The notes under the pieces were generated by a model. That model searched no databases. It was given only the letters and a program-made list of their open reading frames with translations, and had not been told where the DNA came from. A DNA stretch of 21,987 nt from a virus: IMG/VR virus record IMGVR_UViG_3300020074_000143, positions 1-21,987 of that record; one strand, written 5' to 3'. The first letter of the stretch is position 1. Every line of letters starts with the position of its first letter. The position numbers and the translations under genes are program-made. Below are positions 1 through 19,621 of the stretch, piece by piece.

Positions 1-2
1 AA

Positions 3-589: not shown

Positions 590-612
590 GTACATATGAG
601 ATAAACCTCATA

Positions 613-685: not shown

Positions 686-687
686 TT

Positions 688-708: not shown

Positions 709-743
709 TGTTCGATAGTTTGGTTTTCTTTTAGGAGAAAATT

Positions 744-1751: not shown

Positions 1752-1760
1752 GGAATTACA

Positions 1761-2081: not shown

Positions 2082-2746
2082 TGTTGTGCAATGATGTGCA
2101 AGTTTCATTGTGTAACTACATGGGAAATGATTTGTCTGTATGTAATGCAGCCCGTGTCTCATTCAATAAAAATGCTAGTTTGTATACCGAAGAAGAAAAT
2201 AAATCTTTAATAAACTATCTTGCCAAGCATGGTCATTGGTCACCCTTTGCACACACCAGTGTACAATTAAGGATATCAGCACCCATTTTTGTAGCAAGGC
2301 AGTTAGCCAAACATCAGGTTGGTTTGTCTTGGAATGAAGTATCAAGGCGTTATGTGGATTATGTGCCAGATGTGTGGCTACCAGAAACATTAAGACGACA
2401 AGCCTTAAATAAAAAGCAAGGCAGTCTTAATCAAGCTATTGATAATCACGACACAGTTTTAAATACCATGGAACTAAGTCTGAGATCTAGCGTAAAGTGT
2501 TATGAGGATTTACTGAAGGCTGGGGTATGCCCTGAACAGGCAAGAGCTGTGTTACCCCAAGCTATGTATACAGAATGGATATGGACTGGTTCTTTGTATG
2601 CATTCTTCCGTGTATATTCTTTACGAAGCGACCCTAGTTCTCAAAAAGAAACCCAAGATATTGCTGAAATGATTAAGAGCTGTTGTGAGAAAGTGTTTCC
2701 TGTATCTTGGGAAGCCCTAGAAAAAACTTTAGAAAGGATTGTATGA
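2081..2746 (+). CDS. thyX: FAD-dependent thymidylate synthase ThyX
   Basis: ThyX makes dTMP from dUMP using methylene-tetrahydrofolate, FAD and NADPH. The 221-aa length is normal for the family. The signature region is at residues 72-91 (ARQLAKHQVGLSWNEVSRRY), matching the ThyX motif region RHR...NE.S.RY in a variant form. The C-terminal dUMP/FAD-binding part reads QARAVLPQAMYTEW and later FRVYSLR. With the dUTPase and ribonucleotide reductase encoded downstream it forms a dTTP supply route. The start overlaps the previous gene by one base and the stop overlaps the RNA polymerase start (ATGA, 2743-2746). The canonical first Arg is replaced by Lys77 and the motif spacing is one residue longer than RHRX7S. 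Confidence 0.93.
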   Translation: MLCNDVQVSLCNYMGNDLSVCNAARVSFNKNASLYTEEENKSLINYLAKHGHWSPFAHTSVQLRISAPIFVARQLAKHQVGLSWNEVSRRYVDYVPDVWLPETLRRQALNKKQGSLNQAIDNHDTVLNTMELSLRSSVKCYEDLLKAGVCPEQARAVLPQAMYTEWIWTGSLYAFFRVYSLRSDPSSQKETQDIAEMIKSCCEKVFPVSWEALEKTLERIV

Positions 2747-5211
2747 AACAATGGACAAGATTATCTAAAGAAGATCAAGAGAAAAGAATGAATCTTCAGG
2801 CTATTGCTGAAGAAGATATGATCATTCTTTCGGAGCGTAAGTATTGGCAAGAGTATGATGTGGCTCCCGATGAGGGTAAGCCAGAACAATCCTTGTTGGA
2901 TACATGTGTTATAAACTTGACACCTTTATTCCAAGAATGGATAGACTACTCAGCCAAGAATACAAAGACACCAAGCTGGGTATTGCCTTTGTTTGGTGTT
3001 GGTGCTGGTAAGATGGCAGACATAACTGTTAGATGTCTTATCATAGAATGGTTTAATGCTAGTCTGTGGGACAGGAAAACTAATGAACACAATATTAGTT
3101 TGCCAACAGCCCAACACATAGCGCACGCTATCAGTGAAATGGTTATTGATATTATTGGATATCAACAAACCAAAAGTTTCTTTAGAGAAGACTGGCTTAA
3201 ACAATCTCACTACCAGAAAAACTGGTCACCTAAAAGATGTAAAGCATTTGTTGCTAAGATGGGCGGTCTTAACAAGTCTTCGTTCTCACGAAAGAACAGA
3301 GAAGACTTTGGACACCACATGCTCAGGATTGTAGAAAAGTCTAATGTTATAAACATATTTAACATAAGAAAGAACACTGGTAAACGGTGGTGTGATAGAG
3401 TTGTGGTATCGTTTACCAATGAAATTCTACAAGAGCTGCACAAAAGACATACAGATGTTATCTCTTATGCTGCTCTATTGTATAGACCTATGTTGGTTCC
3501 GCCAGTACCACACACTACAACATCTTCGGGTGGAAACCTATTACCTTATGTGCGAAAACCTGTAGTGCAAAGGTTCAAGGATGTAATGTGGGATGAAACT
3601 GTAGTTCAACATGGTTCTACTCCAAGTGAAATGGTGGTAGAGGGTCTGAATGGAATGATGCATACTGAGTGGAGCATAAACGAACAAGTCTACACAGTAA
3701 TGAATAATCTGTTTAGAAACAACACTAGAGCTTGCAACCTACCAGCCTATGAGTTTTCCGCATTCGACTACCCAGAACCCTACCCGAAAGATGGGGCTAA
3801 AGAAGATCGGGCTAAATGGTGTGCCCATAAGCAAGAAGCCTATAGCAACTGGTACAAAGAAGAGAGAGCAAGAGGTCGTATGTTGGTAAGACTGAAGCTT
3901 GCCAAGGATATGATTAAGTATAAGTTCTTCTATCAGTTGTACACTTGTGACTTTAGGGGCAGAGCCAATGCAGCATGTGATCTACTCAGTCCCCAAAGTT
4001 CTGACTTTGATCGCGGCTTAATTCACTTTGCAAACACAGAGAAACAAACACCGAGTGGGTTGTATTGGCTCAAGGTACACCTTGCTAATCTGTTTGATAA
4101 AGACAAGGAAAGTTTCTCTGATCGTGTCAAGTGGATCGACGATAACATGGGTATGTTTAAGGAAATAAACAAAGATCCTTATGCAACCCTTGGTCTATGG
4201 ATGTCTGATAAAAAGAAAAAGAATCCTTCGTTCCAAAGGTTGGCTGCAATATTTGAACTGTGTAGGACAGACGGTCTTACTCAACTACCTGTACAAATGG
4301 ATGGTAGTTGTAATGGTGTCCAACATTGGGCAGCACTAATGAAGACTGAAGAGTTAGCTAATATGGTTAACCTAGTCAAAGCAGACAAACCTCAAGACTT
4401 GTATCAATATGTAGCAAACTTAATTACAGATTTAATGCAACAAGATAAAGATAATGATACTAAGTCTGGTCTTTGGGCTAAACAATTCTTGGACCACTGG
4501 GATAACAACATTAACCGTAGTGTAGTTAAGAGAGCGGTTATGACTGATCCCTATGGTGTTACCTTGTTTGGTATCCGTAGATATTGTAGATCTGAAGGAC
4601 ATCTTGATTGGGTATCTAAAGATAAGATTGCTGGTGCTGTTATGGAACTGGCTACCTTTATAGACAAGGCTCTGAAAGGAACCTTGGTAGAACCCAACAA
4701 GGGTAAAGTGTGGTTAAAAGCGGTATCAGATATTGCTAGTGAACTAAATAAAAACCTAGAGTGGACAACACCATGTGGTTTTAATGTTGTTCACCAGTAT
4801 TACGAGCTTGTTACAAGAAGATCGGTAACCAAGTTGTTTAACATGAAGGAGCTATACTTTGGATATCCCGATAAGAATACTATAGATCCTAAGCAAGTTA
4901 ATCTTGCTATTTCCCCCAATTATATTCACTCATTAGACGCTAGTCATATGTGGTGTACAATTAGAAGGATGTTGTTATCAGGCATAGACTCTCTTAGTAT
5001 GGTTCATGATAGTTATGGATGTCATGCTCCCTGTGTTCCTATGATGCGAGAGTATACAAAGGAAGAGTTCTGTCTTATGCACAAACAACCTTTACTTGAG
5101 AACCTTAAGATTCAATTAGAGAAAATTCTTAATGTACCACTACCTGAACTGCCATCTCAGGGTCAGTATGATATAACAGAAACACTTAATGCGGAGTATT
5201 TATTCCAATGA
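2743..5211 (+). CDS. T7-type single-subunit DNA-directed RNA polymerase
   Basis: This 822-aa enzyme would transcribe the middle and late genes from phage-specific promoters. Palm and fingers motifs are clear. Motif A is MDGSCNGVQHW with catalytic Asp520. Motif B is RSVVKRAVMTDPYG with Lys596. Motif C is SMVHDSYG with Asp756. Also typical are DFRGRANAACDLLSPQ before motif A and SPNYIHSLDASHM before motif C. Length compares with 883 aa for T7. I chose ATG 2743 because it overlaps the thyX stop as ATGA and has AAAGGA 5 nt upstream. A longer in-frame start at 2707 lies inside thyX and lacks this site. A promoter-like 21-mer lies inside the gene at 3787-3807. Confidence 0.97.
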   Translation: MKQWTRLSKEDQEKRMNLQAIAEEDMIILSERKYWQEYDVAPDEGKPEQSLLDTCVINLTPLFQEWIDYSAKNTKTPSWVLPLFGVGAGKMADITVRCLIIEWFNASLWDRKTNEHNISLPTAQHIAHAISEMVIDIIGYQQTKSFFREDWLKQSHYQKNWSPKRCKAFVAKMGGLNKSSFSRKNREDFGHHMLRIVEKSNVINIFNIRKNTGKRWCDRVVVSFTNEILQELHKRHTDVISYAALLYRPMLVPPVPHTTTSSGGNLLPYVRKPVVQRFKDVMWDETVVQHGSTPSEMVVEGLNGMMHTEWSINEQVYTVMNNLFRNNTRACNLPAYEFSAFDYPEPYPKDGAKEDRAKWCAHKQEAYSNWYKEERARGRMLVRLKLAKDMIKYKFFYQLYTCDFRGRANAACDLLSPQSSDFDRGLIHFANTEKQTPSGLYWLKVHLANLFDKDKESFSDRVKWIDDNMGMFKEINKDPYATLGLWMSDKKKKNPSFQRLAAIFELCRTDGLTQLPVQMDGSCNGVQHWAALMKTEELANMVNLVKADKPQDLYQYVANLITDLMQQDKDNDTKSGLWAKQFLDHWDNNINRSVVKRAVMTDPYGVTLFGIRRYCRSEGHLDWVSKDKIAGAVMELATFIDKALKGTLVEPNKGKVWLKAVSDIASELNKNLEWTTPCGFNVVHQYYELVTRRSVTKLFNMKELYFGYPDKNTIDPKQVNLAISPNYIHSLDASHMWCTIRRMLLSGIDSLSMVHDSYGCHAPCVPMMREYTKEEFCLMHKQPLLENLKIQLEKILNVPLPELPSQGQYDITETLNAEYLFQ
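3785..3804 (+). promoter_or_regulatory. Promoter-like motif inside the RNA polymerase gene
   Basis: Bases 3787-3807 match the intergenic element at 6560-6580 at 20 of 21 positions (core GGGGCTAAAGAAGAT). The only difference is A for T at 3791. The two bases before this stretch (CG) do not match the TT of the other copies. It encodes KDGAKED in the polymerase frame, so the resemblance could be chance coding, but 20/21 identity is hard to obtain randomly in 22 kb. If active, it would transcribe the 3' part of the polymerase gene and the genes after it. Confidence 0.35.
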
Positions 5212-5450: not shown

Positions 5451-6105
5451 TGTTTTAGTTGTTGGAGACACACATTTTCCTGCGTGTCATTCAAAGTACT
5501 TTGACTTTGTTAAAAGTATTTACAGAAAATACAAATGTAATAGAGTTGTACACATAGGTGACTTAGTTGATCACCATACAGTATCGTTTCACAAGAAGCA
5601 TCCAGAATCTGATAGTGCGCTTGGAGAGTACAACAAAGCAATCAAAGATATTGAAAAATGGTATAAACAATTTCCCCGAATGTCTGTTTGTATTGGCAAC
5701 CACGATGAAAGAGTCGTAAGATTATGTGCAGACTTAGGAATTCCTTCTCTTTATCTAAAGGAATACAATGAAGTTTACAAAACAAAAACTTGGACTTGGA
5801 ATTACAGTTTTATTATTGACGGGGTGTATTACACTCACGGCACTGGTAGTTCTGGTTTGTATCCTAGTTTTAATCAGGTAAAAGCACGTGCTATGTCTTG
5901 TGTCATGGGTCACCACCACAGTATCGCTGGTATTAATTGGTTGGTTGGTCCTAATACAAGATACTTTGGGATGGATGTTGGTTCAGGTATTGACCACAAC
6001 CACATTGGTTTCTCCTATGGTAAATACCATCTTAAGAAGCCTGTGGTTTCTTGTGGTGTTGTTATTGATGGTAAGTTTCCCTATCTAGAGGTAATGGATC
6101 TATGA
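5443..6105 (+). CDS. Calcineurin-like metallophosphoesterase (220 aa)
   Basis: The classic dinuclear-metal motifs occur in order: D-x-H at Asp9/His11 (VVGDTHF), GD at Gly39-Asp40 (HIGDLVDHH), GNHDE at 85-89, then YTHG and GHHHS near the C-terminus. These are the metal ligands of calcineurin-type phosphoesterases, which hydrolyse phosphomonoesters or diesters. The substrate cannot be told from the sequence. Related small phosphoesterases occur in T7-like and T4-like marine phages, sometimes as end-trimming or nucleotide hydrolases. The ATG at 5443 overlaps the preceding gene by 8 nt, and its stop overlaps the next small gene (ATGA, 6102-6105). No signal peptide is seen, so it should act in the cytoplasm. 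Confidence 0.9.
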   Translation: MSNVLVVGDTHFPACHSKYFDFVKSIYRKYKCNRVVHIGDLVDHHTVSFHKKHPESDSALGEYNKAIKDIEKWYKQFPRMSVCIGNHDERVVRLCADLGIPSLYLKEYNEVYKTKTWTWNYSFIIDGVYYTHGTGSSGLYPSFNQVKARAMSCVMGHHHSIAGINWLVGPNTRYFGMDVGSGIDHNHIGFSYGKYHLKKPVVSCGVVIDGKFPYLEVMDL

Positions 6106-6278
6106 GTATATACATTGACGAACTAAAGGATTTAGCTTACTATAACAATGGTGCTACACCCTTCGTTCTTTTAATGGACGCAGTTTCTGTTGTTAAAAAA
6201 CTAGAGGAAAAACTAAATGAAAAAGAACAAAGCACAACCCTTAATAAAGAAAGTACCCTTAGTCAAAGAAATAACTAA
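6102..6278 (+). CDS. Small hypothetical protein (58 aa) overlapping both neighbours
   Basis: A short frame begins at ATG 6102, overlapping the phosphoesterase stop as ATGA, and ends at TAA 6276-6278. It encodes MSIYIDELKDLAYYNNGATP followed by a hydrophobic stretch and a Lys/Glu coiled-coil segment (VVKKLEEKLNEKEQ). It overlaps the next gene by 62 nt in another frame. The ATGA coupling and the otherwise empty gap of about 110 bases between 6105 and 6217 argue that it is real. No family is recognised. Confidence 0.6.
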   Translation: MSIYIDELKDLAYYNNGATPFVLLMDAVSVVKKLEEKLNEKEQSTTLNKESTLSQRNN

Positions 6279-6561
6279 GAAAGAAACTTTTCTTAAAGAT
6301 GTGGTATTGTCATACAAAATACCAAAGATAGTTAAGATACTGTGGGTAGATGCCTATACAGTAGGTGGTGCTGAGTGGCTTGAAAAAGATGAATCTAGAA
6401 CTGCTGCTAGAGAACCCTTGCCGCATATGATAACAATTGGTTTTGTTTTATTTTCTGATAATGAGCAAGTAGCTGTTACTAATACTATAGGACCTAGTGA
6501 AACTGCTCAAATAAATAAGATACCAAAACGCATGATTATCAGTATGGAAACGCTGCATTAA
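6217..6561 (+). CDS. Hypothetical protein (114 aa)
   Basis: The ATG at 6217 gives a protein with a Lys-rich N-terminal third (MKKNKAQPLIKKVPLVKEIT). A beta-rich middle follows: KIVKILWVDAYTVGGAEW, then MITIGFVLFSDNEQVAVTNT. The IGFVLFSDNEQVAV stretch and a later IGPS/IPK segment look like a small beta fold, but I do not recognise the family. The gene begins inside the preceding 58-aa gene. Its stop (TAA 6559-6561) falls within the promoter-like motif at 6558-6577, so it closes this transcription block. Confidence 0.6.
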   Translation: MKKNKAQPLIKKVPLVKEITKKETFLKDVVLSYKIPKIVKILWVDAYTVGGAEWLEKDESRTAAREPLPHMITIGFVLFSDNEQVAVTNTIGPSETAQINKIPKRMIISMETLH

Positions 6562-6577
6562 AGTTGGGGCTAAAGAA
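6558..6577 (+). promoter_or_regulatory. Putative phage RNA polymerase promoter ahead of the replication genes
   Basis: The motif TTAAAGTTGGGGCTAAAGAA lies at the start of the only gap (6562-6650) between the early/middle block and the replication genes. A sister copy lies before dUTPase (13791-13810) and others at 11857 and 3785. By alignment with SP6/T7-class promoters (CTATAG with start at G) the transcript would begin near G6575. The RNA would then start directly before the long stem-loop at 6581-6632. This is inferred from repetition and position; no experimental promoter for this phage is known to me. Confidence 0.55.
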
Positions 6578-6580
6578 GAT

Positions 6581-6632
6581 GTTCTTGTTTGCTCGTTGTC
6601 AGTCTAATCGTATAGACTACAGCAAACAGAAC
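6581..6632 (+). other. Long stem-loop in the leader of the replication operon
   Basis: GTTCT-T-GTTTGCT (6581-6593) pairs with AGCAAACAGAAC (6621-6632) in 12 bp with a single bulged T6586. Inside it AGTCTA (6601-6606) pairs with TAGACT (6613-6618) around loop ATCGTA. An outer GTTG/CAAC pair (6563-6566 and 6633-6636) can extend it if transcription starts further upstream. There is no following U-tract, so it is not a simple terminator. Its place right after the putative start site suggests a 5' protective stem, an RNase III site or a translation control element. Confidence 0.6.
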
Positions 6633-6650
6633 CAACTACAAGGATGACTA

Positions 6651-6737
6651 ATGAAGTCAAAGAAGCCAGTTAAGAAAACGGTTAAGTCAAAGAAACCAGT
6701 TCGCAAAGCTATGATGACAAAGAAAGGAGGATATTAA
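6651..6737 (+). CDS. 28-aa Lys-rich repeat peptide
   Basis: ATG 6651 is preceded by AAGGA (6640-6644) at good spacing and the frame ends at TAA 6735-6737, directly before the next ATG. The peptide MKSKKPVKKTVKSKKPVRKA ends MMTKKGGY. It carries two copies of KSKKPV and resembles the Lys-Pro tails of H1-like DNA-binding proteins. The DNA repeats are also alike (17 of 18 bases). Within its last codons lies AAAGGAGG, the ribosome-binding site of the next gene. It may therefore be a real nucleic-acid-binding peptide or mainly a translated leader. Confidence 0.5.
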   Translation: MKSKKPVKKTVKSKKPVRKAMMTKKGGY

Positions 6738-6953
6738 ATGACAGTTACGGAAACTCAAACTGAAGAAGCTACTACAGGAAATGTTCCTGCTATTCGTAGC
6801 GACAGTGTATGCCAGTATCTTTTAAACATGGCTGCTGTTCTAAGTTCAATTGTGGTTGATATCAATGCACAAGTTGCATCTATCAAGCGCATCTCGCAAA
6901 CTAACAATACAGAAGAAAGTTCTACTAATGGCAACAACAAACAAGAAGACTAA
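6738..6953 (+). CDS. Small hypothetical protein (71 aa)
   Basis: ATG 6738 lies behind a very strong AAAGGAGG. The protein begins MTVTETQTEEATTG. A predicted central helix follows (VCQYLLNMAAVLSSIVVDINAQVASIKRI) and a polar Asn/Ser/Glu tail. The helix is amphipathic rather than clearly membrane-spanning. It overlaps the start of the ssDNA-binding protein gene by 26 nt. No family is recognised. The strong start signal makes it likely to be well expressed, perhaps as an assembly or regulatory partner of the replication proteins, but nothing proves this. Confidence 0.65.
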   Translation: MTVTETQTEEATTGNVPAIRSDSVCQYLLNMAAVLSSIVVDINAQVASIKRISQTNNTEESSTNGNNKQED

Positions 6954-7461
6954 AAGAATTCCTCAATTTATCACACCAACATTGGAAACCAAGTGGAGTA
7001 ATCTACTGAAGCCAGATGTTGCTTTCGGAGAAGGCAGTGCTAACCACAACATTACTGTTGTTGTTGATACTGAGTTTAAGAAAGTTTTGGATACTGTTCT
7101 TAAGAACAGTGGAGCAAAGAAACTAAATGGGTTACGGGAGGCAGACGGTGTTACAACATTTAAAGCAAAATCTAAGGTTCATGTGGATGCTGGCATGTTC
7201 CCTTGTGTCGATTCTTTGGGACAAGCTACGGACACAGTTCCGTTTGGTGGTGACAAAGTTCGTCTCAAGTTGGCACCGATGGTTCTAACTAGAGATAATT
7301 CTTTATCAATCTATCTGAATGGTATTCAGGTTATTGAGAAGAACTCTGTTACTAAGGACAACAGTTTCACTCCTGTTGAGGGTGGTTTTGTTCGTTCGGG
7401 TGTACCAACACGCGATGTAACAGAACCAGAGGATCAGGAAGACAGTGACCTCCCCTTCTAA
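6928..7461 (+). CDS. Single-stranded DNA-binding protein (T7 gp2.5-like)
   Basis: The 177-aa protein from ATG 6928 (MATTNKKTKRIPQF...) has the layout of T7 gp2.5. A basic N-terminus is followed by a beta-rich OB-type body (NITVVVDTEFKKVL, VRLKLAPMVLTRDN, LSIYLNGIQVIE). It ends in an acidic tail, EPEDQEDSDLPF, with a terminal Phe. In T7 that aromatic tail contacts polymerase and primase-helicase. It sits directly before the resolvase and primase-helicase, as in T7 order. I preferred 6928 to an in-frame upstream start at 6850, since the extra 26 residues look like the out-of-frame shadow of the preceding gene. It would coat displaced strands in replication and recombination. Size is a little below T7's 232 aa. 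Confidence 0.85.
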   Translation: MATTNKKTKRIPQFITPTLETKWSNLLKPDVAFGEGSANHNITVVVDTEFKKVLDTVLKNSGAKKLNGLREADGVTTFKAKSKVHVDAGMFPCVDSLGQATDTVPFGGDKVRLKLAPMVLTRDNSLSIYLNGIQVIEKNSVTKDNSFTPVEGGFVRSGVPTRDVTEPEDQEDSDLPF

Positions 7462-7837
7462 GACCTTAAGTTGGCAATTCAATATCAATCCTGTGGCTGC
7501 TTCTAGACCCAGGGTTAGTAGGTGGGGTGCTTTTTATGTAGGATCTTACAAAAAGTTCCGTGAAGAAGCTGCTGAAAAGGTGTGGAATACCATTGGAAGT
7601 GGGTTTAAACCTCTCACCAATACCTTAGCTGTATCTATAGAGTTGCATGTTAAAAGACCTAAGAAAACAGATAAGGAATACCCACGCCCAGATATTGATA
7701 ACTTTGCCAAAGCTATCTTAGACACCATGAATGGTAAACTATGGGAAGATGATACACAAATTATCTCTCTGTATGTTACCAAACAATGGGCAGAAAAAAA
7801 TTCTGAGGGTTACTTTATATTACAAGTAAACTGTTGA
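7445..7837 (+). CDS. RusA-family Holliday junction resolvase (GTG start)
   Basis: The 130-aa protein carries the RusA signature. An N-terminal strand with Pro/Arg (INPVAASRPRVSRWG) is followed by RPDIDNFAKAILDTMNG at 82-97, with Asp83/Asp85/Asn86, and then WEDDTQI with Asp102/Asp103. These acidic residues bind Mg in RusA dimers, which cut four-way junctions. The start is GTG 7445, with AGGAAG just upstream, inside the end of the ssDNA-binding gene (17-nt overlap). In T7 this slot is taken by gp3 endonuclease I, so RusA probably does that job: resolving branched replication and packaging intermediates and perhaps cutting host DNA. Confidence 0.9.
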   Translation: MTSPSKTLSWQFNINPVAASRPRVSRWGAFYVGSYKKFREEAAEKVWNTIGSGFKPLTNTLAVSIELHVKRPKKTDKEYPRPDIDNFAKAILDTMNGKLWEDDTQIISLYVTKQWAEKNSEGYFILQVNC

Positions 7838-7894
7838 GGCTGAAGTATGGGGTGTGGGTGTAACAACCCATGCCCCTACTTTATTAGGAGGTAT

Positions 7895-9628
7895 ATGTCT
7901 GAATCGGTGTATATTACAAAAGAAGCTTGCCCTAAGTGTAAGCAAGAAGGTCGTGACAACTCAAATGATAACTTGGCTGTCTATTCAGATCATGTCTATT
8001 GTTTTAGTTGTGGTTATTACAAAGGAGAGTATGTGAAAACAGAAGAACAAGTTGTTGTAAAAGACTTTGTTCCAATACAGGGTTCTTTTGACTTTAGTCA
8101 AGAGTTATCTGATCGTCAAATAAACGAGAAGGTGTGTAGATTGTACAACTACCAAGTCGCTAAGATCAATGGTAAGATGGTACAAATTGCAAACTATTAC
8201 AAAGATGGAACACTGGTAGGTCAACACTTGCGTGGACCTGATAAGCAATTTGCTTGGAAAGGTTCAGCTAAGAATGTTGAATTGTTTGGTCAACATCTAT
8301 GGAAAACTACTGGTGGCAAACGGTTGATTATTACCGAAGGTGAGATTGATTGTCTTACAGTCAACCAAGTCTTAGGTGGTACTTGGGCTGTTGTGTCTGT
8401 TCCTAATGGTGCTGCATCAGCACTAAAGTCTATCAAAGAAAATCTAGAGTTTGTTAACAGCTATGCAGAAGTTATTCTGTGCTTTGATATGGATGACGCA
8501 GGACAAAATGCTGCTAAAGAAGTTGCTGATATTCTACCAGCTGGTAAGTGTAAGATTGCAAAGCTTCCATACAAGGATGCTAATGAGTGTCTTATAAACT
8601 CTCAGTCTAAATCTCTTGTGAATGCCTTGTGGGAAGCCCAAGCATATTCACCAGATGAAATTTTACATGTATCAAAGATAGCAAATGACACCCAAAATAT
8701 TGAAGATGTTCGGGTGTATCCATTTCCATATGACAAACTAAGTGAGTTTCTTATTGGTCAGCGTAGTGGTGAGATTACCTTATGGGCTAGTGGTACTGGC
8801 TCAGGTAAGTCAACTATTCTAAGAGAGTTAATTATTAATCATCTTGTGGATGGTCGTAGTGTTGGTTGTATTATGCTTGAAGAATCCCCTCAAGAAACAA
8901 TGGATGATCTTATATCACTATTGTTAAACAAACCAGTACGAGCCATTAGAGCTTCACGTATGATGAATGCTTTACAAGTTAAGATGGGACGATCAAAAAT
9001 CAGTGTCTCTATCTTTGATGATCTTAGTGATGATGAGTACCAAGCAGCCAGACACAAACTGTGTCAAACTAATCTGTTTATCTATGACCACCTAGGTAAC
9101 AATGCAATGGCAAATCTATTAGCTAGAATGGAGTTTATGGCTACATCTCTGAAGGTAGATGTTATTGTACTAGACCACATAACAGCAGCAGCTGCTGGTC
9201 TAATGGGTGTTGGAGATAAAGATGTTGAGGGTGGTGGTTCTGAGCGTATCATTATAGATACCCTTATGAAAGAGTTGAGATCTATTGCAGTTAGAACAGG
9301 TGTTCATATTGATATAGTATCACAACTAAAGAAAACAGATAAGGCATATGAAGAAGGTCACAGAGTTACACTACAAGATCTTCGCGGATCTGGTGCATTA
9401 TCCTCAGTACCAAACACAGTTGTTGGTCTTGAAAGAGATAGACAAAACCCAGATGAACGGACAGCTAATACTACCTTAGTTAGAGTTCTAAAGAACAGGC
9501 TAACAGGTAGGTCTGGTATTGCTACTGCTTTGTACTACAACCACAAAACTGGTCGGTTGGAAGAAGTTAACTTTGCTATAGCTGATGATGGAGAGGTCGC
9601 ATTTGAACCAGTTAATACAAATATATGA
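7895..9628 (+). CDS. DNA primase-helicase (T7 gp4-like)
   Basis: One polypeptide joins a primase and a hexameric 5'-3' helicase. From ATG 7895 it is 577 aa (T7 gp4 is 566). The zinc ribbon has Cys12, Cys15, Cys36 and Cys39. A TOPRIM primase core follows with EGEIDCLTV and LCFDMDDAG. The helicase has Walker A GTGSGKST (Lys305), Walker B VIVLDHI, and RecA-like motifs IDIVSQLKK and LQDLRGSGALS. ATG 7895 has TTAGGAGG immediately upstream, though spacing is short. An in-frame ATG at 7847 would add 16 residues (MGCGCNNPCPYFIRRY) and cannot be excluded. The stop overlaps the DNA polymerase start (ATGA, 9625-9628). It unwinds DNA ahead of that polymerase and primes the lagging strand. Confidence 0.95.
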   Translation: MSESVYITKEACPKCKQEGRDNSNDNLAVYSDHVYCFSCGYYKGEYVKTEEQVVVKDFVPIQGSFDFSQELSDRQINEKVCRLYNYQVAKINGKMVQIANYYKDGTLVGQHLRGPDKQFAWKGSAKNVELFGQHLWKTTGGKRLIITEGEIDCLTVNQVLGGTWAVVSVPNGAASALKSIKENLEFVNSYAEVILCFDMDDAGQNAAKEVADILPAGKCKIAKLPYKDANECLINSQSKSLVNALWEAQAYSPDEILHVSKIANDTQNIEDVRVYPFPYDKLSEFLIGQRSGEITLWASGTGSGKSTILRELIINHLVDGRSVGCIMLEESPQETMDDLISLLLNKPVRAIRASRMMNALQVKMGRSKISVSIFDDLSDDEYQAARHKLCQTNLFIYDHLGNNAMANLLARMEFMATSLKVDVIVLDHITAAAAGLMGVGDKDVEGGGSERIIIDTLMKELRSIAVRTGVHIDIVSQLKKTDKAYEEGHRVTLQDLRGSGALSSVPNTVVGLERDRQNPDERTANTTLVRVLKNRLTGRSGIATALYYNHKTGRLEEVNFAIADDGEVAFEPVNTNI

Positions 9629-11331
9629 AAACTTGTATACTAGATATCGAAGGTAATGCTTTATCAGAAGTCAATATAGAAAAGAAAGGAATTGCTAAAA
9701 AAGAATGCACTAAAATATGGTGCGTAGCAACAAAGGATTACAAGGATTCTAAACCTAGGTTGTGGACCGAAAGTCAACTAAAGGATTTAGTTTTATACCT
9801 CAGTAAGTTTGATGTACTTGTGGGTCATAACATTTATGGTTATGATTTACCAGTGCTAGTTCGCTTATTGGGTTTAACGATGCCAAGACTTGTTGTAGAT
9901 ACATTAGTTGTATCTCGCTTAATGTTTCCAGACAGGAACGATCACAAGCTTGGTGGTAACTCTTTGGAAAACTGGGGTAAGTTTCTTAAGTTTCCTAAAA
10001 TAGAATACAATGGAGATTGGTCACACTACTCAGATGACATGGGTAGGTATTGTCTAAATGATGTTCTCCTTAGTGAACAGATATATGAGTATCAATTACC
10101 CTTTATCATCACTAATAAAACATTAGTTAAATTTGAACACCAAGTTTCTCATGTCTTATTCAAACAAGTGGAGAATGGTTTTGGTTACAATCTAACATTG
10201 GGTGACAATCTACTTGAGTCTTTGATTCTAGAAAAAGTAGAAATTGAAGACAACATGCGTGAAATCTTTCCAGATAAGATACACGTAAGGTACTCAAAGA
10301 AAACAGGTAAGGCACTTAAGAACAAGGTCGAAGTATTCAACCCAGGTTCTAGAGTACAGATTGCTGAGAGGTTGGAAGAAAAGTACGGATGGGTTGCACC
10401 AACTACAGATAAGGGTAATCCTAAAGTTGACGAAGAAGTTCTAAGCAAACTAAAGTATGATGAAGCCAAAGCATTGGTAAAATACTTTGATCTTGTAAAA
10501 CTTATTGGTCAAGTTGAAGACTGGAATCTCAGAGCGTTTGCTTCCCGTGATCACAGGATACACGGTAGCATCAACCCTCAGGGGGCAGCGACTGGTAGAT
10601 GTACCCACAGCCAACCTAATGTAGCCCAAGTCTCTAGTGACCCTAGGGTTCGTTCCCTGTGGTTTCCAAATATAGATGGATATGTTCAGGTTGGTTCTGA
10701 TCTCAAGGGTTTGGAATTGAGAATGTTGGCACACTATATGTCCAAGTATGATAACGGTAACTACGCTACAGTACTGATCAATGGTGATATACATTCCCAC
10801 AACCAAGAAGCAGCTGGTCTTGCTGACAGAAACTTAGCCAAGTCCTTTATATATGCTTATCTATATGGTGCTAGTAACACAAAGTTATCTAAAGTTCTAG
10901 GATGTTCTTCTGCAAACGCTGACAATCTTCGTAAAAAGTTTCAGAAAGAAATCCCTGCATTGACTAAAGTTCAAGAACAAGTTCGGTATGAATTCTTAAA
11001 ATCCAACAGTGTTACTTTACCTGACGGCAGATCAGTTCCTGTTCGCAAGGAACATGCTGCATTAAATACCCTGTTACAAGGTGCGGGGGCTGTTGTATCA
11101 AAGTTATGGATGGTTATTGCAGATGAGCAACTAAATGCCAAGTATGGTAGCAAAGTATTTCAGATGGCTTATATACATGATGAACTACAGTATGCTGCAC
11201 CTAAAGATATAGCTGATGATGTTGGTCAAATAATTAAAGACTCAGCTAACAAAGCTGGTGTCAGACTTAATCTTAATATTCCTATAGATGCCGAGTATAC
11301 TATAGGTTTGAATTGGAATGATACTCATTAA
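9625..11331 (+). CDS. Family A DNA polymerase with 3'-5' exonuclease
   Basis: The 568-aa replicative polymerase has an N-terminal proofreading domain: Exo I DIEGNAL with Asp7/Glu9, Exo II VGHNIYGYDLP and Exo III YCLNDVLLSEQIY. It is followed by the polymerase domain. That contains ATGRCTHSQPNVAQ, motif A SDLKGLELRMLAHYM (Asp359), motif B RNLAKSFIYAYLYG (Lys406, Tyr410) and motif C IHDELQY (Asp519). T7 polymerase is 704 aa. Part of the gap falls where T7 has its thioredoxin-binding insertion, which looks absent or much reduced here. Tyr410 corresponds to T7 Tyr526 / E. coli Phe762. Position after primase-helicase is as in T7. Confidence 0.96.
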   Translation: MKTCILDIEGNALSEVNIEKKGIAKKECTKIWCVATKDYKDSKPRLWTESQLKDLVLYLSKFDVLVGHNIYGYDLPVLVRLLGLTMPRLVVDTLVVSRLMFPDRNDHKLGGNSLENWGKFLKFPKIEYNGDWSHYSDDMGRYCLNDVLLSEQIYEYQLPFIITNKTLVKFEHQVSHVLFKQVENGFGYNLTLGDNLLESLILEKVEIEDNMREIFPDKIHVRYSKKTGKALKNKVEVFNPGSRVQIAERLEEKYGWVAPTTDKGNPKVDEEVLSKLKYDEAKALVKYFDLVKLIGQVEDWNLRAFASRDHRIHGSINPQGAATGRCTHSQPNVAQVSSDPRVRSLWFPNIDGYVQVGSDLKGLELRMLAHYMSKYDNGNYATVLINGDIHSHNQEAAGLADRNLAKSFIYAYLYGASNTKLSKVLGCSSANADNLRKKFQKEIPALTKVQEQVRYEFLKSNSVTLPDGRSVPVRKEHAALNTLLQGAGAVVSKLWMVIADEQLNAKYGSKVFQMAYIHDELQYAAPKDIADDVGQIIKDSANKAGVRLNLNIPIDAEYTIGLNWNDTH

Positions 11332-11339
11332 GGAGATAT

Positions 11340-11696
11340 ATGTTATTAGATTACACTACAAACAAGCCACTTACTTTATATATTGCTGGTCCTATGCGTG
11401 GTTATGCGTTGCATAATTTCCCAGCTTTTCATTCAGCAGCTAAAAAGTGGGCTAAGAAAATACCTGGTTGTACAATTTTTAATCCCGCTGAAATGGATGA
11501 ACAAGCTGGTTTTGACGGCAACAGTGTTTCATTAGACAGTAAGGAACATCTTAAGTCTTGTATGAAGCGTGACTTAGATGCCATTATGAAATCAGATGGA
11601 TTAGTTATGTTACATGGTTGGGAAAATTCTGAAGGAGCCAGAGTAGAACATTCTTTAGCTGTCTATCTTGGTTTATGTATATTCTATGAAAGTTAA
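11340..11696 (+). CDS. DUF4406 protein, nucleoside 2-deoxyribosyltransferase-like fold
   Basis: The protein (118 aa) has an N-terminal LYIAGPMRG followed by NFPAFHSAAKKW, and a C-terminal pattern MKRDLDAIMKSDGLVMLHGW-ENSEGARVEHSLA. Together these are the hallmark of DUF4406, a family related to nucleoside 2-deoxyribosyltransferases. Many phages carry it, and the reaction has not been fixed for the family. Its place beside polymerase, kinase-like and dUTPase genes fits nucleotide salvage or modification. ATG 11340 follows AAGGAG at ideal spacing and lies 8 nt after the polymerase stop, so strong independent translation is likely. Its end overlaps the next gene by 11 nt. Confidence 0.82.
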   Translation: MLLDYTTNKPLTLYIAGPMRGYALHNFPAFHSAAKKWAKKIPGCTIFNPAEMDEQAGFDGNSVSLDSKEHLKSCMKRDLDAIMKSDGLVMLHGWENSEGARVEHSLAVYLGLCIFYES

Positions 11697-12162
11697 AGTA
11701 CAAGCTTGTTTTTACTCAAGCTATAAACTACAAGGTTGGCGTAAGCTTGTAATTGCTTTAATGCAAATGACTAGGCATACCCATGTACACTTAGAAATAG
11801 AACACGATAATAATAAGTACATTATCTTAACCATAGATGGAGACAGTCCACGCATCTTAAAGTTGGGGCTAAACAAGAAGTTTCTTGGCGTTGATCCCTA
11901 TTACAGTTATTCATTTGGGCTAGTTAATTTAGATCCTGAATGGCAGGACTTTGTAAGCTCATACAAACCAACTAAACACTGGGATTTAATTAAGTACCAG
12001 ATACTGAGATGGTTTAACCTACACCACAGTAAGCGCATTCCCCCAACATGTGCTACATTTGTTTCAGATTTTATGTTCTTGCATAATATTTCTGTACCAA
12101 TGTTCTTTTCACCTAAACAATTATGGAGATATTGGCATGATGGTTATAATGTTTGGCGGTAA
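11686..12162 (+). CDS. Probable permuted papain-like (NlpC/P60, LRAT/YiiX-type) hydrolase
   Basis: The 158-aa protein from ATG 11686 has His residues in a strand-like THVHLEIEHDNNKY (31-45). Much later a Cys heads a helix, PPTCATFVSDFMF (Cys122). That His-before-Cys order is seen in circularly permuted NlpC/P60 proteins such as LRAT and YaeF/YiiX, which act on amide or ester bonds. There is no signal peptide. If active it might cleave peptidoglycan peptides, lipids or a host protein; T7 has its lysozyme/amidase gp3.5 in the replication region. I preferred ATG 11686 to a TTG at 11668. The assignment rests on the residue pattern alone and could be wrong. A promoter-like motif lies within the gene at 11857. 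Confidence 0.5.
   Translation: MKVKVQACFYSSYKLQGWRKLVIALMQMTRHTHVHLEIEHDNNKYIILTIDGDSPRILKLGLNKKFLGVDPYYSYSFGLVNLDPEWQDFVSSYKPTKHWDLIKYQILRWFNLHHSKRIPPTCATFVSDFMFLHNISVPMFFSPKQLWRYWHDGYNVWR
11857..11876 (+). promoter_or_regulatory. Promoter-like motif copy inside the hydrolase gene
   Basis: TTAAAGTTGGGGCTAAACAA shares 17 consecutive bases with the intergenic copy at 6558 and differs from it only by C for G at the expected start position. It is followed directly by CAAGAAGTTTCTTG, a perfect short inverted repeat. It encodes LKLGLNK, so coding constraint cannot explain an exact 17-base match well. The C at +1 may weaken it. If active it would drive the kinase-like and exonuclease genes. Confidence 0.4.
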
Positions 12163-12883
12163 AGCACGGGTTGGTAAAACAACCCTTGCTAAATTATTTA
12201 CAGAATACTTGTATAATAAAGGATACTCTCCAGTTATTGTTCCTTTTGCTGATGTATTAAAAAGAGAGGTAGAAAAAACTGGACTAACAAAAGAAGCTAA
12301 TCCCGAACAATATAGATTAGCTTGTCAAGTTCTTGGTTCAGGTATGCGTAAGAACAATCCTGACTTTTGGGTTAATAAATTTGAAGAGCGGCTTAATGAA
12401 ATTAAAATACAAGACATTGAAAACTTAGAAACCAACCCAAAAAAGTGGCATGAAAAATGTGTACTGGTTGATGATTGTAGATATTTAAATGAAGTTAACT
12501 TTGGTAGAAAGATTGGTGCCTTACAAGTATTTGTAGCTCATGGTAAAAGAGTTGTATCAGAACATGATGCACCTTGGCGTAACCATGAAAGTGAAGACAT
12601 GGCTAATAAGATAGAATCTAGTAATATGAATTACACAGAAATGTTTCACTATAGATTATTTAACGAAGGTACAGAAAAGGAATTCAAAACCAAAGCTACT
12701 AATTACTTTGAGGATTGGTTAAACTATATGAAAAGTGATGATAAAGTTTTGTGTGATTGTTTAGGCTGTATGAAAACAAGATATGATATAGCTCTTACAT
12801 TAGGGGATCTAGAACAAATTTTAGATAAAGCACACAAGAAACTTGCGGAAGAAGATGACGAAGATTTAGAAGATATATTGTGA
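12137..12883 (+). CDS. P-loop nucleotide-kinase-like protein (248 aa)
   Basis: Near the N-terminus is a clear Walker A, GGKARVGKTTLAK (Gly8-Lys14-Thr15). It is followed by VPFADVLKREVE and later VLVDDCRYLNEVNF, whose VDD-x-R pattern fits the acceptor/Mg region of phage deoxynucleoside monophosphate kinases. It probably phosphorylates a nucleotide, likely a dNMP given its neighbours, but the substrate is not shown. The C-terminus adds a CDCLGC cluster and a very acidic tail (EEDDEDLEDIL). Start choice is between ATG 12137 and 12140, both behind GGAG. The start lies 26 nt inside the preceding gene. A long upstream extension to 12050 reads only the previous gene's shadow frame. Confidence 0.72.
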   Translation: MMVIMFGGKARVGKTTLAKLFTEYLYNKGYSPVIVPFADVLKREVEKTGLTKEANPEQYRLACQVLGSGMRKNNPDFWVNKFEERLNEIKIQDIENLETNPKKWHEKCVLVDDCRYLNEVNFGRKIGALQVFVAHGKRVVSEHDAPWRNHESEDMANKIESSNMNYTEMFHYRLFNEGTEKEFKTKATNYFEDWLNYMKSDDKVLCDCLGCMKTRYDIALTLGDLEQILDKAHKKLAEEDDEDLEDIL

Positions 12884-12891
12884 CAAAACAT

Positions 12892-12911
12892 TTACACTTG
12901 GGTGTAAAGAC
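12892..12911 (+). promoter_or_regulatory. Weak promoter-like motif in the gap before the exonuclease
   Basis: TTACACTTGGGTGTAAAGAC matches TTAAAGTTGGGGCTAAAGAA at 15 of 20 positions and sits in the 54-base gap 12884-12937. The same bases form a 7-bp inverted repeat, TTTACAC/GTGTAAA around TTGG (12891-12908). The site could therefore be a hairpin rather than a promoter. A 15/20 match is near what chance can give in 22 kb, so only the position supports it. Confidence 0.3.
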
Positions 12912-12937
12912 CGACAATTTATCACAGGAGAATATTA

Positions 12938-13066
12938 ATGGTTGATCCAGAAGATGAAGATTTAGAAGACGATGTAAACGATAACGAGACAACACCAGAA
13001 CAAGATCATGCTTATTGGCTGGACTTACGTAAGAGGACAAGGATGGAATACGATGATGAATCTTGA
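12938..13066 (+). CDS. Small acidic hypothetical protein (42 aa)
   Basis: ATG 12938 follows CAGGAGA at good spacing. The peptide begins MVDPEDEDLEDDVNDNETTP and ends with a helix-like, Arg-containing segment (HAYWLDLRKRTRMEYDDES). The first half is almost all acidic and echoes the acidic tail of the preceding kinase-like protein; a 14-base string is identical in both. The stop overlaps the exonuclease start by 14 nt. The function is unknown. The good ribosome-binding site and position argue that it is translated, perhaps to couple expression of the exonuclease. Confidence 0.6.
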   Translation: MVDPEDEDLEDDVNDNETTPEQDHAYWLDLRKRTRMEYDDES

Positions 13067-13793
13067 ACCAATGCCTAAGGTTGCTGTATTAGACGGCGAT
13101 ATACTAGCGTACAGGATTGCTTTCTGGGCAGAGTCTGAGGGTATTGAAGATATTGAAACCAGAGTAGATCATGATGTCAAAGCATGGGTACCCCCTGGTA
13201 TTACTACAGTACACATAGCAGTATCATGTGCAAGGTCTGATAACTTTAGGCGTAAGATTTGGGATCCGTATAAAAGGCACAGGGATGTTAACCGAAAGGT
13301 TCCCGAAGCTTTACCCTTAGCCGTTGAGTTGGTTACCAAAGTTGGTAACAAGTTAGATATTCCCCAACTAGAAGCTGATGATGTTATGGGTATCATGGCA
13401 TCAGGCTATCGTGCTGTGGCTGTAACCATAGACAAAGATCTTAGATCTGTACGGGGATGGCATTGGAATCCAGATAAAGAAGATAAACCAGTTCTTGTTG
13501 ATGCTAGACAGGCAGAGTATAACTTTCATAAGCAGTGGCTTACGGGGGATACTACTGATAACATACCTGGAATCTGGAAGTGTGGTCCAATAAAAGCACA
13601 GAAGTTATTAGACTCGGTTCAACCACACAACTGGACCGACGCTGTTTTGGGTGCATACGAGCAAGCTAAAGATGCACAAGGAAACCCCTACAGTCTTGAT
13701 TATTGTGTAAAAATGGCACAATGTGTTAGGATATTGCGGGATGGAGAGTATAATTCAGATACAAAAGAACCAATTCTATGGAACCCTGCCTAA
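13053..13793 (+). CDS. 5'-3' exonuclease (T7 gp6-like, FEN/PIN family)
   Basis: The 246-aa protein shows the acidic metal-binding pattern of FEN-type nucleases: VAVLDGDILAYR (Asp14, Asp16), then QLEADDVMG and AVTIDKDLRSV. The helix-three-turn-helix region reads TGDTTDNIPGIWKCGPIKAQ. In T7, gp6 removes RNA primers, degrades host DNA and makes recombinogenic ends; the same is expected here. I chose ATG 13053 (MMNLEPMPKVAVLDGD), with AAGGATGG upstream. In-frame 13008 lies well inside the preceding small gene. The gene ends at TAA 13791-13793, which begins the putative promoter before dUTPase. Confidence 0.92.
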   Translation: MMNLEPMPKVAVLDGDILAYRIAFWAESEGIEDIETRVDHDVKAWVPPGITTVHIAVSCARSDNFRRKIWDPYKRHRDVNRKVPEALPLAVELVTKVGNKLDIPQLEADDVMGIMASGYRAVAVTIDKDLRSVRGWHWNPDKEDKPVLVDARQAEYNFHKQWLTGDTTDNIPGIWKCGPIKAQKLLDSVQPHNWTDAVLGAYEQAKDAQGNPYSLDYCVKMAQCVRILRDGEYNSDTKEPILWNPA

Positions 13794-13810
13794 TAGTTGG
13801 GGCTATAGAA
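13791..13810 (+). promoter_or_regulatory. Putative phage RNA polymerase promoter before dUTPase
   Basis: TAATAGTTGGGGCTATAGAA lies between the exonuclease stop and the dUTPase start. It shares AGTTGGGGCTA with the copies at 6558 and 11857. Aligned on CTATAGAA it matches the SP6 promoter at 13 of 20 positions, including CTATAG, where transcription of SP6 and T7 promoters starts at G. Start would be G13808, leaving a 23-nt leader with AAGGAT before ATG 13831. It would drive dUTPase, the reductase and possibly late genes. Confidence 0.55.
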
Positions 13811-13830
13811 TACAACCAAGGATAAGATAT

Positions 13831-14340
13831 ATGTCAACAGATAGTTATTATATCAGTTCAAACACCTTTTCAAACCCCACTGAGGTTTCAGCAGCAACCT
13901 ATGTTCACCAAAACTATAACGCTGTTAAGGTTAAATTAGAACAAAACGCAAAGCTACCAATGTTTCAAACGGCAATGTCCGTAGGGGCTGACCTAGCTTG
14001 CTTAAACGAGTTTACTTTACAATGTAATATGCCAACCCTGATTGATACAGGTGTTTCTTTAGAGTTACCTATAAACACAGCTGGTTTAGTTTATATTAGA
14101 TCCAGCGTAGCCTTAAGTGGTATTGTCTTAAGTAATGGTGTCGGTGTTATAGATCCTGATTACAGAGGTACAATTAAACTTATGTTAACAAATATATCAG
14201 GTGGTATAAAATCATTTTCTAAAGGTACAAGATTAGCCCAGTTAATTCTTACTCCAACCATATGTGCTAGATTTGTTGAAGTTACGAATCTTAATACTAC
14301 AGATAGAAATAATGGTGGGTTTGGATCAACTGGAGTTTAA
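13831..14340 (+). CDS. dut: dUTPase (trimeric dUTP diphosphatase)
   Basis: All five motifs of homotrimeric dUTPases are present in the 169-aa protein: I SVGADLACL (50-58), II IRSSVALSG (89-97), III NGVGVIDPDYRG (102-113) with Asp108 and Tyr111, IV KGTRLAQLIL (131-140), and V NNGGFGSTG (160-168). The enzyme turns dUTP into dUMP, keeping uracil out of DNA and feeding ThyX. The N-terminal 30 residues are an unrecognised Ser/Thr/Asn-rich extension. I chose ATG 13831 because it follows AAGGATAAG and comes just after the putative promoter. An upstream in-frame start at 13723 would overlap the exonuclease. The reductase gene starts one base after its stop. Confidence 0.95.
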   Translation: MSTDSYYISSNTFSNPTEVSAATYVHQNYNAVKVKLEQNAKLPMFQTAMSVGADLACLNEFTLQCNMPTLIDTGVSLELPINTAGLVYIRSSVALSGIVLSNGVGVIDPDYRGTIKLMLTNISGGIKSFSKGTRLAQLILTPTICARFVEVTNLNTTDRNNGGFGSTGV

Positions 14341-14341
14341 T

Positions 14342-16219
14342 ATGAATACATTTCAAGAATTTATAGCACTAAGTCGTTACTCAAGATGGCTACCAAATTT
14401 AGGTCGCCGTGAAACATGGGAAGAAACAGTAGAAAGATGGTGGTCTTTCTTTACAAACAAAGCACCCCAATTATTAGAAAGACCTGATATTAAATCAGCC
14501 ATTCTTAATCTAGAAGTTCTACCCAGTATGCGTGGTCTTATGACCGCTGGGGTTGCTTTAGAAAAAGATAATACAGCTTTATATAACTGTGCTTATATGG
14601 AGATTGATTCTCCCAAAGCATTCTGTGAACTAATGTATATCTTAATGTGTGGCACTGGTGTTGGCTATAGCGTTGAATCGCGTTGTGTAAATAAATTACC
14701 TCTCGTACCAACATCAATAGAAAAAGTTTGGGAAAAACCCATTGTTGTCGAAGACTCAAGAGAAGGTTGGTGTAACTCTTTAGAATCATTAATCACAAAT
14801 CTTTACAGTGGAGTTCATCCCAAGTGGGATACTTCTAAAGTTCGCAAAGCAGGCGAAAGACTGAAGACATTTGGTGGTCGAGCAAGTGGACCACAGCCCC
14901 TTGAAGAAGTGTTTAGATATGTAACACAATCATTTTACAAAGCACGAGGTCGCCACCTCAGTTCTCTAGAGTGTCATGACATCTGTTGTAAGATTGCCCA
15001 GTCTGTTATTGTGGGTGGTGTTCGTAGGTCTGCTATGATTTCACTGTCTGATCTATCAGATCGTGAGATGGCAAACTGTAAGTCTGGTGCTTGGTGGGAA
15101 ACGGCATCACACAGATCACTAGCAAATAACTCTGCTGTATATCAAGATCGACCTTCTATGGGGCAGTTCATGGAAGAGTGGTCTGATCTTTATAACTCGC
15201 ACTCAGGCGAACGTGGTATTTGTAACAGACAAGCCATGACTGATATTGCCAAAGCATCACACAGAGATACAGAAGAATATTTCTTTGGTACAAACCCTTG
15301 TTCAGAAATTATTCTACGACCCAATCAATTCTGTAATTTATCTACAGTTGTTGTTCGGGCTGATGATAATATAGAAACTTTAAATCGTAAGATTGAACAA
15401 GCTACTGTTATAGGTACAATCCAAAGTATGTTTACACATTTCCCATACTTAAGAAACTCTTGGGAAAAGAATTGTAAGGAAGAAAGATTGTTGGGTGTCA
15501 GTATGACTGGCATCTTTGATAACAAACTTATGTCTGGTAAAGAAGGTAGACCAAAGCTCAAGTATGTTTTGGAAGTTTTAAAAGAAACTACTGAATATAC
15601 TAATCTTGTTTGGTCTGATAAATTAGGTATCGCTCCTAGTAAATCAATCACGTGTATCAAGCCAGAAGGTACTACATCTTGTTTAGCAAACTCAGCGTCT
15701 GGGTTACACCCAAGATACTCTGAGTATTATTATAGACGTGTACGGTTGGATAAGAAAGATCCAATGTATGCTATGATGAGAGATCAAGGGGTTACGGTAG
15801 AGGATTGTGTAATGAATCCTGAGTCTACAGCTGTGTTTACATTTCCCCAAAGAGCAGAACTAGGTACACAAACCAGTGAAACACTAGGAGCAATGGAACA
15901 CCTACAGCTATGGTTAGACTATCAACAATTCTATTGTCACCATAAGCCTAGTATCACTGTGTCTTATACAGATGATGAGTTCTTAGAGATTGGTAACTGG
16001 GTTTGGAAAAACTTTGATAAGATATCAGGTATATCATTCTTACCCAAGTGTGACCATACATATGCTCAAGCTCCCTTTGAAACTATTGATGCTCGTACCT
16101 ATAACATGTCTCCAAAAGTTCTTGTAGATTTTTCTAAGTTAAAGGATTATGAGTTAAATGATACAACAACATCTTCACACTCTATGGCTTGTACGGCTGG
16201 GGGTTGTGAAATTATTTAA
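14342..16219 (+). CDS. nrdJ: Class II (adenosylcobalamin-dependent) ribonucleoside-triphosphate reductase
   Basis: The 625-aa protein matches monomeric B12-dependent reductases. SRYSRW and ETWEETVERW open the N-terminus. The substrate/redox cysteines are Cys83 (ALYNCAYME) and Cys331 (NQFCNLS). The radical site is NPCSE with Cys320 and Glu322, and the C-terminal CTAGGC pair is Cys617/Cys622. The 11-residue and 5-residue cysteine spacings equal those of the Lactobacillus leichmannii enzyme, which is longer (739 aa). It makes dNTPs from NTPs without oxygen but needs cobalamin, which the host must provide. ATG 14342 has GGAG upstream and lies one base after dUTPase. Similar viral class II reductases are known from marine podoviruses. 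Confidence 0.95.
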   Translation: MNTFQEFIALSRYSRWLPNLGRRETWEETVERWWSFFTNKAPQLLERPDIKSAILNLEVLPSMRGLMTAGVALEKDNTALYNCAYMEIDSPKAFCELMYILMCGTGVGYSVESRCVNKLPLVPTSIEKVWEKPIVVEDSREGWCNSLESLITNLYSGVHPKWDTSKVRKAGERLKTFGGRASGPQPLEEVFRYVTQSFYKARGRHLSSLECHDICCKIAQSVIVGGVRRSAMISLSDLSDREMANCKSGAWWETASHRSLANNSAVYQDRPSMGQFMEEWSDLYNSHSGERGICNRQAMTDIAKASHRDTEEYFFGTNPCSEIILRPNQFCNLSTVVVRADDNIETLNRKIEQATVIGTIQSMFTHFPYLRNSWEKNCKEERLLGVSMTGIFDNKLMSGKEGRPKLKYVLEVLKETTEYTNLVWSDKLGIAPSKSITCIKPEGTTSCLANSASGLHPRYSEYYYRRVRLDKKDPMYAMMRDQGVTVEDCVMNPESTAVFTFPQRAELGTQTSETLGAMEHLQLWLDYQQFYCHHKPSITVSYTDDEFLEIGNWVWKNFDKISGISFLPKCDHTYAQAPFETIDARTYNMSPKVLVDFSKLKDYELNDTTTSSHSMACTAGGCEII

Positions 16220-16230
16220 GAGGTATTACT

Positions 16231-17896: not shown

Positions 17897-17897
17897 T

Positions 17898-19481: not shown

Positions 19482-19485
19482 TATT

Positions 19486-19620: not shown

Positions 19621-19621
19621 T

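Follow-up and report, generated by a model that had tools for sequence, protein, structure and literature searches.

The virus record IMGVR_UViG_3300020074_000143 of IMG/VR, of which positions 1 to 21,987 were analysed (this whole stretch is called the window below), comes from a T7-like phage and carries a motif of some 20-23 bp, repeated on the strand of its genes. Very probably, this motif serves as promoter for the single-subunit, T7-family RNA polymerase (RNAP) that the phage itself encodes. We favour this reading because of the anatomy of the motif, because of its conserved positions in related genomes, and because one change in the specificity loop of the polymerase is accompanied by a change in the promoter core.

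An exact search of the whole window finds AGTTGGGGCTA on the plus strand at 6562, 11861 and 13795 and nowhere on the minus strand. This agrees with the original prediction, which had described three plus-strand 20-mers starting at 6558, 11857 and 13791 and sharing an 11-base core, and had seen no such motif on the other strand. With at most one mismatch to AGTTGGGGCTA, the window has five matches, all on the plus strand, when 0.31 are expected, the two additional ones lying at 3789 and 19584; with at most three mismatches to the 20-mer, it has four when 0.01 are expected. The copy at 6558 belongs to a site which we call P3 (6556..6578, plus strand, predicted +1 at G6575), located at the boundary between the block of the RNAP gene and the gene of a single-stranded DNA (ssDNA)-binding protein; it overlaps the TAA stop of the open reading frame (ORF) 6217-6561, and the core comes directly after this stop, in a short gap. 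The copy at 13791 belongs to P4 (13789..13811, plus strand, predicted +1 at G13808), at the boundary between the exonuclease and dUTPase genes; it overlaps the TAA stop of ORF 13008-13793, again with the core directly after the stop and in a short gap. Placement in a gap holds for these two copies, but has to be corrected for the third (11855..11877, plus strand, predicted +1 at C11874), which lies within an ORF (11668-12162 from TTG, or 11689-12162 from ATG) without family match and upstream of the dNMP-kinase gene. A weak fourth match at 12892 is reproduced at 15 of 20 positions, but it coincides with a perfect inverted repeat, TTTACAC-TTGG-GTGTAAA (12891..12908, plus strand, 7-bp arms and a 4-base loop), which looks like an RNA stem-loop and which we do not take for a promoter. 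This repeat lies in the gap before the exonuclease gene, and may be involved in RNA processing or act as a terminator-like stem-loop.

The motif is organised like a T7-type promoter: an AT-rich block at about -17 to -13, a specificity block at -12 to -6, a T/A-rich block in which melting would occur, and a purine at +1 (replaced by C in the intragenic copy). When +1 is held fixed, TAATAGTTGGGGCTATAG (13791-13808) and the T7 promoter TAATACGACTCACTATAG agree at five of five positions from -17 to -13 and at six of six from -5 to +1, with AATA at -16 to -13 and CTATAG at -5 to +1 in the same register in T7 and in the phage group of the window, but they have none of the seven core bases in common (CGACTCA at -12 to -6 in T7). 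The copy at 6558-6575 ends in CTAAAG, as in T3 (6/6). T7 carries some 17 promoters per genome, whereas the group of the window has about four anchored sites per genome.

A likeness of the copy at 13791 to the SP6 promoter had been pointed out before. Its 13 matches out of 20 are reproduced with an SP6 20-mer; the CTATAG end and three of the seven core bases are common but the AT-rich block agrees at two of five positions and the core differs; T7 fits better outside the core (11 of 11 flanking bases, none of seven in the core). The presence of TTGGG in the promoter of Syn5, also noted before, is real: according to PMC3950665, PMC6834552 and PMC9624206, the promoters of the aquatic phages VSW-3 (TTAATTGGGCCACCTATA followed by G) and Syn5 (ATTGGGCACCCGTAA followed by G) both contain TTGGG, and that of VSW-3 ends in CTATAG like the copy at 13791. 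In these promoters, however, TTGGG is three bases further upstream of +1 and therefore out of register with our motif: one of seven core bases agrees in register, and VSW-3 matches GTTGGGGC at six of eight positions when slid by three. An equal core was not found in the part of the literature covered by the search, to which the 2025 survey of T7-like promoters (Zhu et al.) does not belong, and text searches for the motif strings returned no phage paper by title. Since most of the testable features of T7-type promoters were found and the core was not found in the literature searched, we regard the motif as one of a known kind with a new core. The original prediction had suggested an undescribed promoter class: the promoter part of this claim is well supported, but the motif would rather represent a new sequence specificity among the promoters of T7-type single-subunit phage polymerases.

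The enzyme which would read these promoters is encoded at 2707..5211 on the plus strand (834 aa from TTG, the ATG at 2743 being also a possible start). Its product matches the Pfam family RNA_pol (1.6e-85), phrog_414 (1.4e-147) and T7 RNAP in PDB (3.5e-46); its predicted fold has T7 RNAP folds as nearest neighbours (E 5e-33, TM about 0.65, about 21% identity over the fold alignment), and the catalytic residues D537, K631, Y639 and D812 of T7 align with its D532, K608, Y616 and D768. Among named phages, the best 40 RNAP hits listed, of 2,574 records, are 25-29% identical to it. A search for a host through GTDB contigs gave seven distant relatives only (25-32%), which do not indicate any host.

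Relatives of this RNAP with 65-100% identity are encoded at 55 loci of IMG/VR, on contigs of up to 68 kb, and a second scan using the RNAP of a divergent one among them (L033) as query added nine contigs, seven at 79-83% identity to L033 and two at 49% and 42%. Twenty-two of the 55 records were picked for their length and searched whole: they contain 58 copies of the exact 11-mer, at least one in each record, and all of these run in the direction of the RNAP gene; the reversed control never occurs. The 58 occurrences are not independent, because several of these records are near-copies of one another. Sixteen records taken whole represent 959,599 bases, 7.1% of which are gaps according to a mechanical calling of ORFs. 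There, the 10-mer GTTGGGGCTA is found 57 times in the sense of the RNAP gene and never in antisense, and 32 of these 57 exact sites are in gaps, as are 9 of 56 sites with one mismatch. Hence the enrichment in the gaps of related genomes, named beforehand as a test on which the prediction could fail, is observed. We also seeded a profile with 37 distinct exact sites and iterated it. With a minimum of 18 bits it has 101 distinct hits in sense and none in antisense, and with a minimum of 14 bits 129 and 7, respectively; its consensus is CCC(A/T)A(T/A)AGTTGGGGCTA(C/A)(A/T)GA(T/A)A, the base taken as +1 being G (0.71) or A (0.22), and the starts proposed earlier, G6575 and G13808, coincide with this predicted +1. 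The profile took in coding matches from the RNAP gene, which inflates the scores of coding sites, and for this reason our claims rest on the exact-core counts and on the anchored positions. In an unguided comparison of k-mer counts with a Markov expectation over all records, the motif is not among the 25 best.

A strict 19-base pattern run over IMG/VR gave at least 80 stretches, some of them on contigs already collected. Among the 80 listed, 62 are on contigs encoding proteins of the group (best hit at 45% identity or more), and on these every matched gene is on the strand of the motif; 14 are without protein match to the group. The last four (L135, L158, L166 and L188) have a DNA polymerase about 31-33% identical to that of the group. 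We set them aside as cyanophage-like chance hits, because L166, the one examined closely, has the motif inside its DNA-polymerase gene and an ORF nearby which, by eye, we take to be psbA-like.

The positions of the motif along the genomes were compared in 18 records, with the flanking genes as anchors and 17 bits as the lowest score of a site, the denominators being the records in which a place could be scored. Four places emerged: P1, just after a giant gene (14/14 records); P2, within the 6 kb before the RNAP gene (12/14); P3, between the RNAP and ssDNA-binding-protein genes (16/17); and P4, between the exonuclease and dUTPase genes (16/16). The window sites at 6575 and 13808 are P3 and P4. 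The element is thus repeated in a single orientation at gene boundaries, as T7-type promoters are. These positions bear on the idea that the repeats arose by coincidence or from coding constraint, to which we give almost no credit as an account of the whole set. Plainly coding matches do exist in the window, at 3785 and 19584, and so does a recurring site within a gene of about 350 aa in three relatives (G002, G003, G013); the excess of copies in the window, the enrichment in gaps, the purity of strand and the conserved places in relatives all argue in the opposite direction. For P3 and P4 coincidence is refuted, and it may still account for individual intragenic matches.

Another view is that the motif is the binding site of some other factor, be it a phage activator, a host sigma factor or a protein of replication or packaging. 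P1 adjoins AT-rich DNA and palindromic repeats, which could serve one of the last two processes. Yet the motif keeps the register of T7, with CTATAG or CTAAAG at -5 to +1; its direction is always that of the RNAP gene; its placement resembles that of T7 promoters, including a site just after the RNAP block; and its core changes together with the RNAP loop (see below). As to a host sigma factor, sigma-70-like hits within positions 1-20000 of the window are not above chance (50 found vs 66 expected). Binding by another factor is, in our opinion, improbable, and a promoter of the phage RNAP remains the reading that we retain.

The surroundings of P1 deserve a description of their own (L072:9180-10270, which is G007 29180-30270; the same place is found in G002-G004, G006, G008-G012 and G018). 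The giant gene which precedes P1 codes for about 3,200-4,300 aa (G004 20425-33438, G007 17958-29180, G002 49241-60136). After P1 the DNA is AT-rich: in 11 records, the richest 40-base window near P1 ranks among the top 0.04% of its genome six times (five of these six records being of one sublineage) and within the top 1-5% five times. Palindromic CCTTAGGTTAACCTAAGG-like repeats follow, with TCCGATAACC occurring repeatedly in G007. Up to the next plus-strand ORF, the gap measures about 650-1,300 bases in G004, G007, G009 and G011, but only 165-245 in G002, G003 and G018. The region is a candidate for a genome end or a replication origin, and P1 itself may also function as an origin of replication at the end of the genome.

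The giant protein also enters another hypothesis, that of a hairpin promoter of the kind used by the virion RNAP of N4. The early promoters of N4 are hairpins, according to PMC4496689. Some copies in the group can be written as CCCAA-TAG-TTGGG, a 5-bp stem with a 3-base loop, and the protein of 3,200-4,300 aa encoded next to P1 could perhaps be its reader. However, compensatory changes are absent from the sites of the group: over 86 distinct sites, 274 paired cells are observed vs 274.4 after shuffling. Moreover, the copies of the window do not form the full stem, and the giant protein of G004 (4337 aa, the only one tested) has no match in Pfam and no RNAP match in PHROGs, where its one match is a family of unknown function. 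We consider this hypothesis to have next to no chance of being right and rejected it, largely on account of the absent covariation.

The copy inside ORF 11689-12162 was compared with its relatives at the level of codons. Where the amino acid is kept, the codons within the motif are identical in 6 of 6 cases in G003, 5 of 5 in G002 and 5 of 6 in G013, while outside the motif the same gene has 34 of 77, 39 of 75 and 37 of 71 identical codons, respectively. This excess over the rest of the gene speaks against coincidence or coding constraint. Of 28 homologues of the gene, 9 have TTGGGGCTA, 2 have it with one base changed, and the 17 others, which lack it, are all at 29-33% protein identity. One homologue with 34% protein identity, L053, retains the DNA motif despite changed neighbouring amino acids. 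The unusual conservation of the codons of the motif and its retention in L053 point to a constraint acting on DNA, at least in the sublineage of the window, and the copy is probably a weaker promoter.

Other intragenic matches were judged differently. The near-match at 3785..3804 (plus strand), within the RNAP gene, codes for PKDGAKE; 5 of 6 of its codons are kept in both G002 and G003, vs 294 of 597 and 310 of 590 elsewhere in the gene. Its motif decays in more distant relatives, and because of this loss we rejected it as a promoter and judged it a coding coincidence. The near-match at 19584, in a small ORF, was judged in the same way; this ORF is the first of three consecutive small lysine-rich ORFs found at 19417-20145 between the portal and scaffold genes. 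A match to the consensus core recurs in the gene of about 350 aa upstream of a very large gene (about 43276 in G002, about 11673 in G003, 33447-33457 in G013), and reflects either coding constraint or a further intragenic promoter.

The specificity loop of the RNAP corresponds to residues 703-719, TRRSVTKLFNMKELYFG (4813..4863, plus strand). Nearly all of the 54 aligned RNAP rows follow the pattern TRRS[VI][TAS]KLF[ND]MKEL[YHN]FG, and the mean conservation of the loop is 0.91, vs 0.80 for the whole protein. The RNAPs of L033 and L034 carry K709R and M713T, at positions otherwise invariant, together with S at the variable position 708. These two substitutions are among only six changes that L033 and L034 show at the 341 positions where the other 52 rows do not vary; the loop holds 12 of the 341, so that 0.2 changes would be expected in it and two are seen. 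The L033 and L034 records lack the consensus core. The P3 of L033 is CCCAATAAATGTAGCTATA followed by GATA, that of G028 (the whole record of L034) is identical, and the P4 of G028 is GCCGAATATATGTAGCTATA followed by GATA, which gives the common variant ATGTAGCTATA followed by GATA, with A at -11, T at -8, A at -7, and A or T at -12. The variant core also occurs in a third record, G031, whose P3 and P4 are the same as in G028. The sister lineage L118 retains both K709 and M713 as well as a consensus P3, TCCCAATAGTTGGGGCTATG followed by GATA, and in the RNAP tree L033/L034 are nested within the lineages having the consensus core, as sisters of L118 (support 100/97). In T7, the loop (739-770) is reported to read promoter positions -11 to -7 (PMC5937735). 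We may have here a natural switch of specificity caught midway, K709R and M713T going with changes at -12, -11, -8 and -7 in P3 and P4 and, so far, at -11 only in P1, as seen in a related record; we give this interpretation somewhat less than an even chance.

Several facts weigh against a promoter read by the phage RNAP, or at least against parts of this account. One-mismatch variants of GTTGGGGCTA in the 16 records are found 56 times in sense but also 20 times in antisense, and within called ORFs lie 25 of the 57 exact sites and 47 of the 56 one-mismatch sites. P2 is absent from G001, a close relative of the window, and from G003, both of the same sublineage as the window, and G013 lacks P3. 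At +1 the intragenic copy carries C, with which enzymes of this type start poorly, and 17 of the 28 homologues of its gene are without the motif. The core was not found as a family in two records with more distant RNAPs, G023 (51% identical) and G024 (43%), and no clear family of promoters came out of searches for repeated windows in these two either, one such search being uninformative on strand as it returned mirror images. The conservation of the loop is unexceptional, as 144 of the 826 windows of 14 residues surpass it. The change of loop and core is a single event, noticed post hoc; the L033 and L034 RNAPs are near-identical, and near-copies are frequent among the other 52 rows. The P1 of G031 (ATAGATGGGGCTATA followed by GATA) shows only the change at -11, and G031 yielded no RNAP. 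The changed position -12 is beyond the T7 contacts reported in PMC5937735. Finally, the AlphaFold model is poor at the specificity loop (pLDDT below 50 at residues 700-703 and 714-723), and for this reason no contact can be read from it.

The following genes of the window are all on the plus strand: one for a phrog_1221 protein whose function is unknown, and those of thymidylate synthase, the single-subunit RNAP, a phosphoesterase, the Gp2.5-like ssDNA-binding protein, a RusA-like resolvase, primase-helicase, DNA polymerase, dNMP kinase, exonuclease, dUTPase, ribonucleotide reductase, portal (head-tail adaptor), scaffold and capsid. The ssDNA-binding-protein gene (6850..7461, plus strand, phrog_112 at 6.9e-11) is downstream of P3. 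The first gene downstream of P4 is that of dUTPase (13831..14340, plus strand, phrog_135 at 2.3e-39) and the second that of ribonucleotide reductase (14339..16219, plus strand, phrog_367 at 4.2e-173 and others). A tRNA-Leu gene (anticodon TAA) is found at 613-685, upstream of the RNAP block.

The host polymerase presumably transcribes the early region, which contains the RNAP gene. The phage RNAP would then bind about 23 bp, from -19 to +4: AATA at -16 to -13 would form its AT-rich block, GTTGGGG at -12 to -6 would be read in the major groove by the specificity loop, and melting would affect the bases CTA(T/A)A or CTACT at -5 to -1, initiation taking place mostly at G. Binding and initiation by the phage RNAP would thus be expected at G6575 and G13808, P3 restarting transcription before the replication genes and P4 before the genes of nucleotide metabolism and structure, with a probable additional start inside the gene at 11874. 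In most relatives, two further promoters would act, P2 ahead of the RNAP block and P1 behind the giant gene. The resulting temporal order would be that of host-driven early genes followed by RNAP-driven replication and late genes.

This freshwater phage and its uncultured group would then possess an RNAP whose predicted promoter code does not share any base with that of T7 at -12 to -6. Because this core is unlike that of T7 and because the RNAPs are so distant from the best named-phage hits listed, polymerase and promoter are a candidate orthogonal expression pair. The promoter set could explain how transcription is partitioned in a T7-like group whose contigs reach 68 kb. The lineage with an altered loop and altered cores would be a concrete case of coevolution of an enzyme and its promoters; if the switch of specificity is true, it would be a stepwise rewiring, in the wild, of the network between a phage RNAP and its promoters, of which both the old pair, in the sister lineage, and the new pair are preserved.

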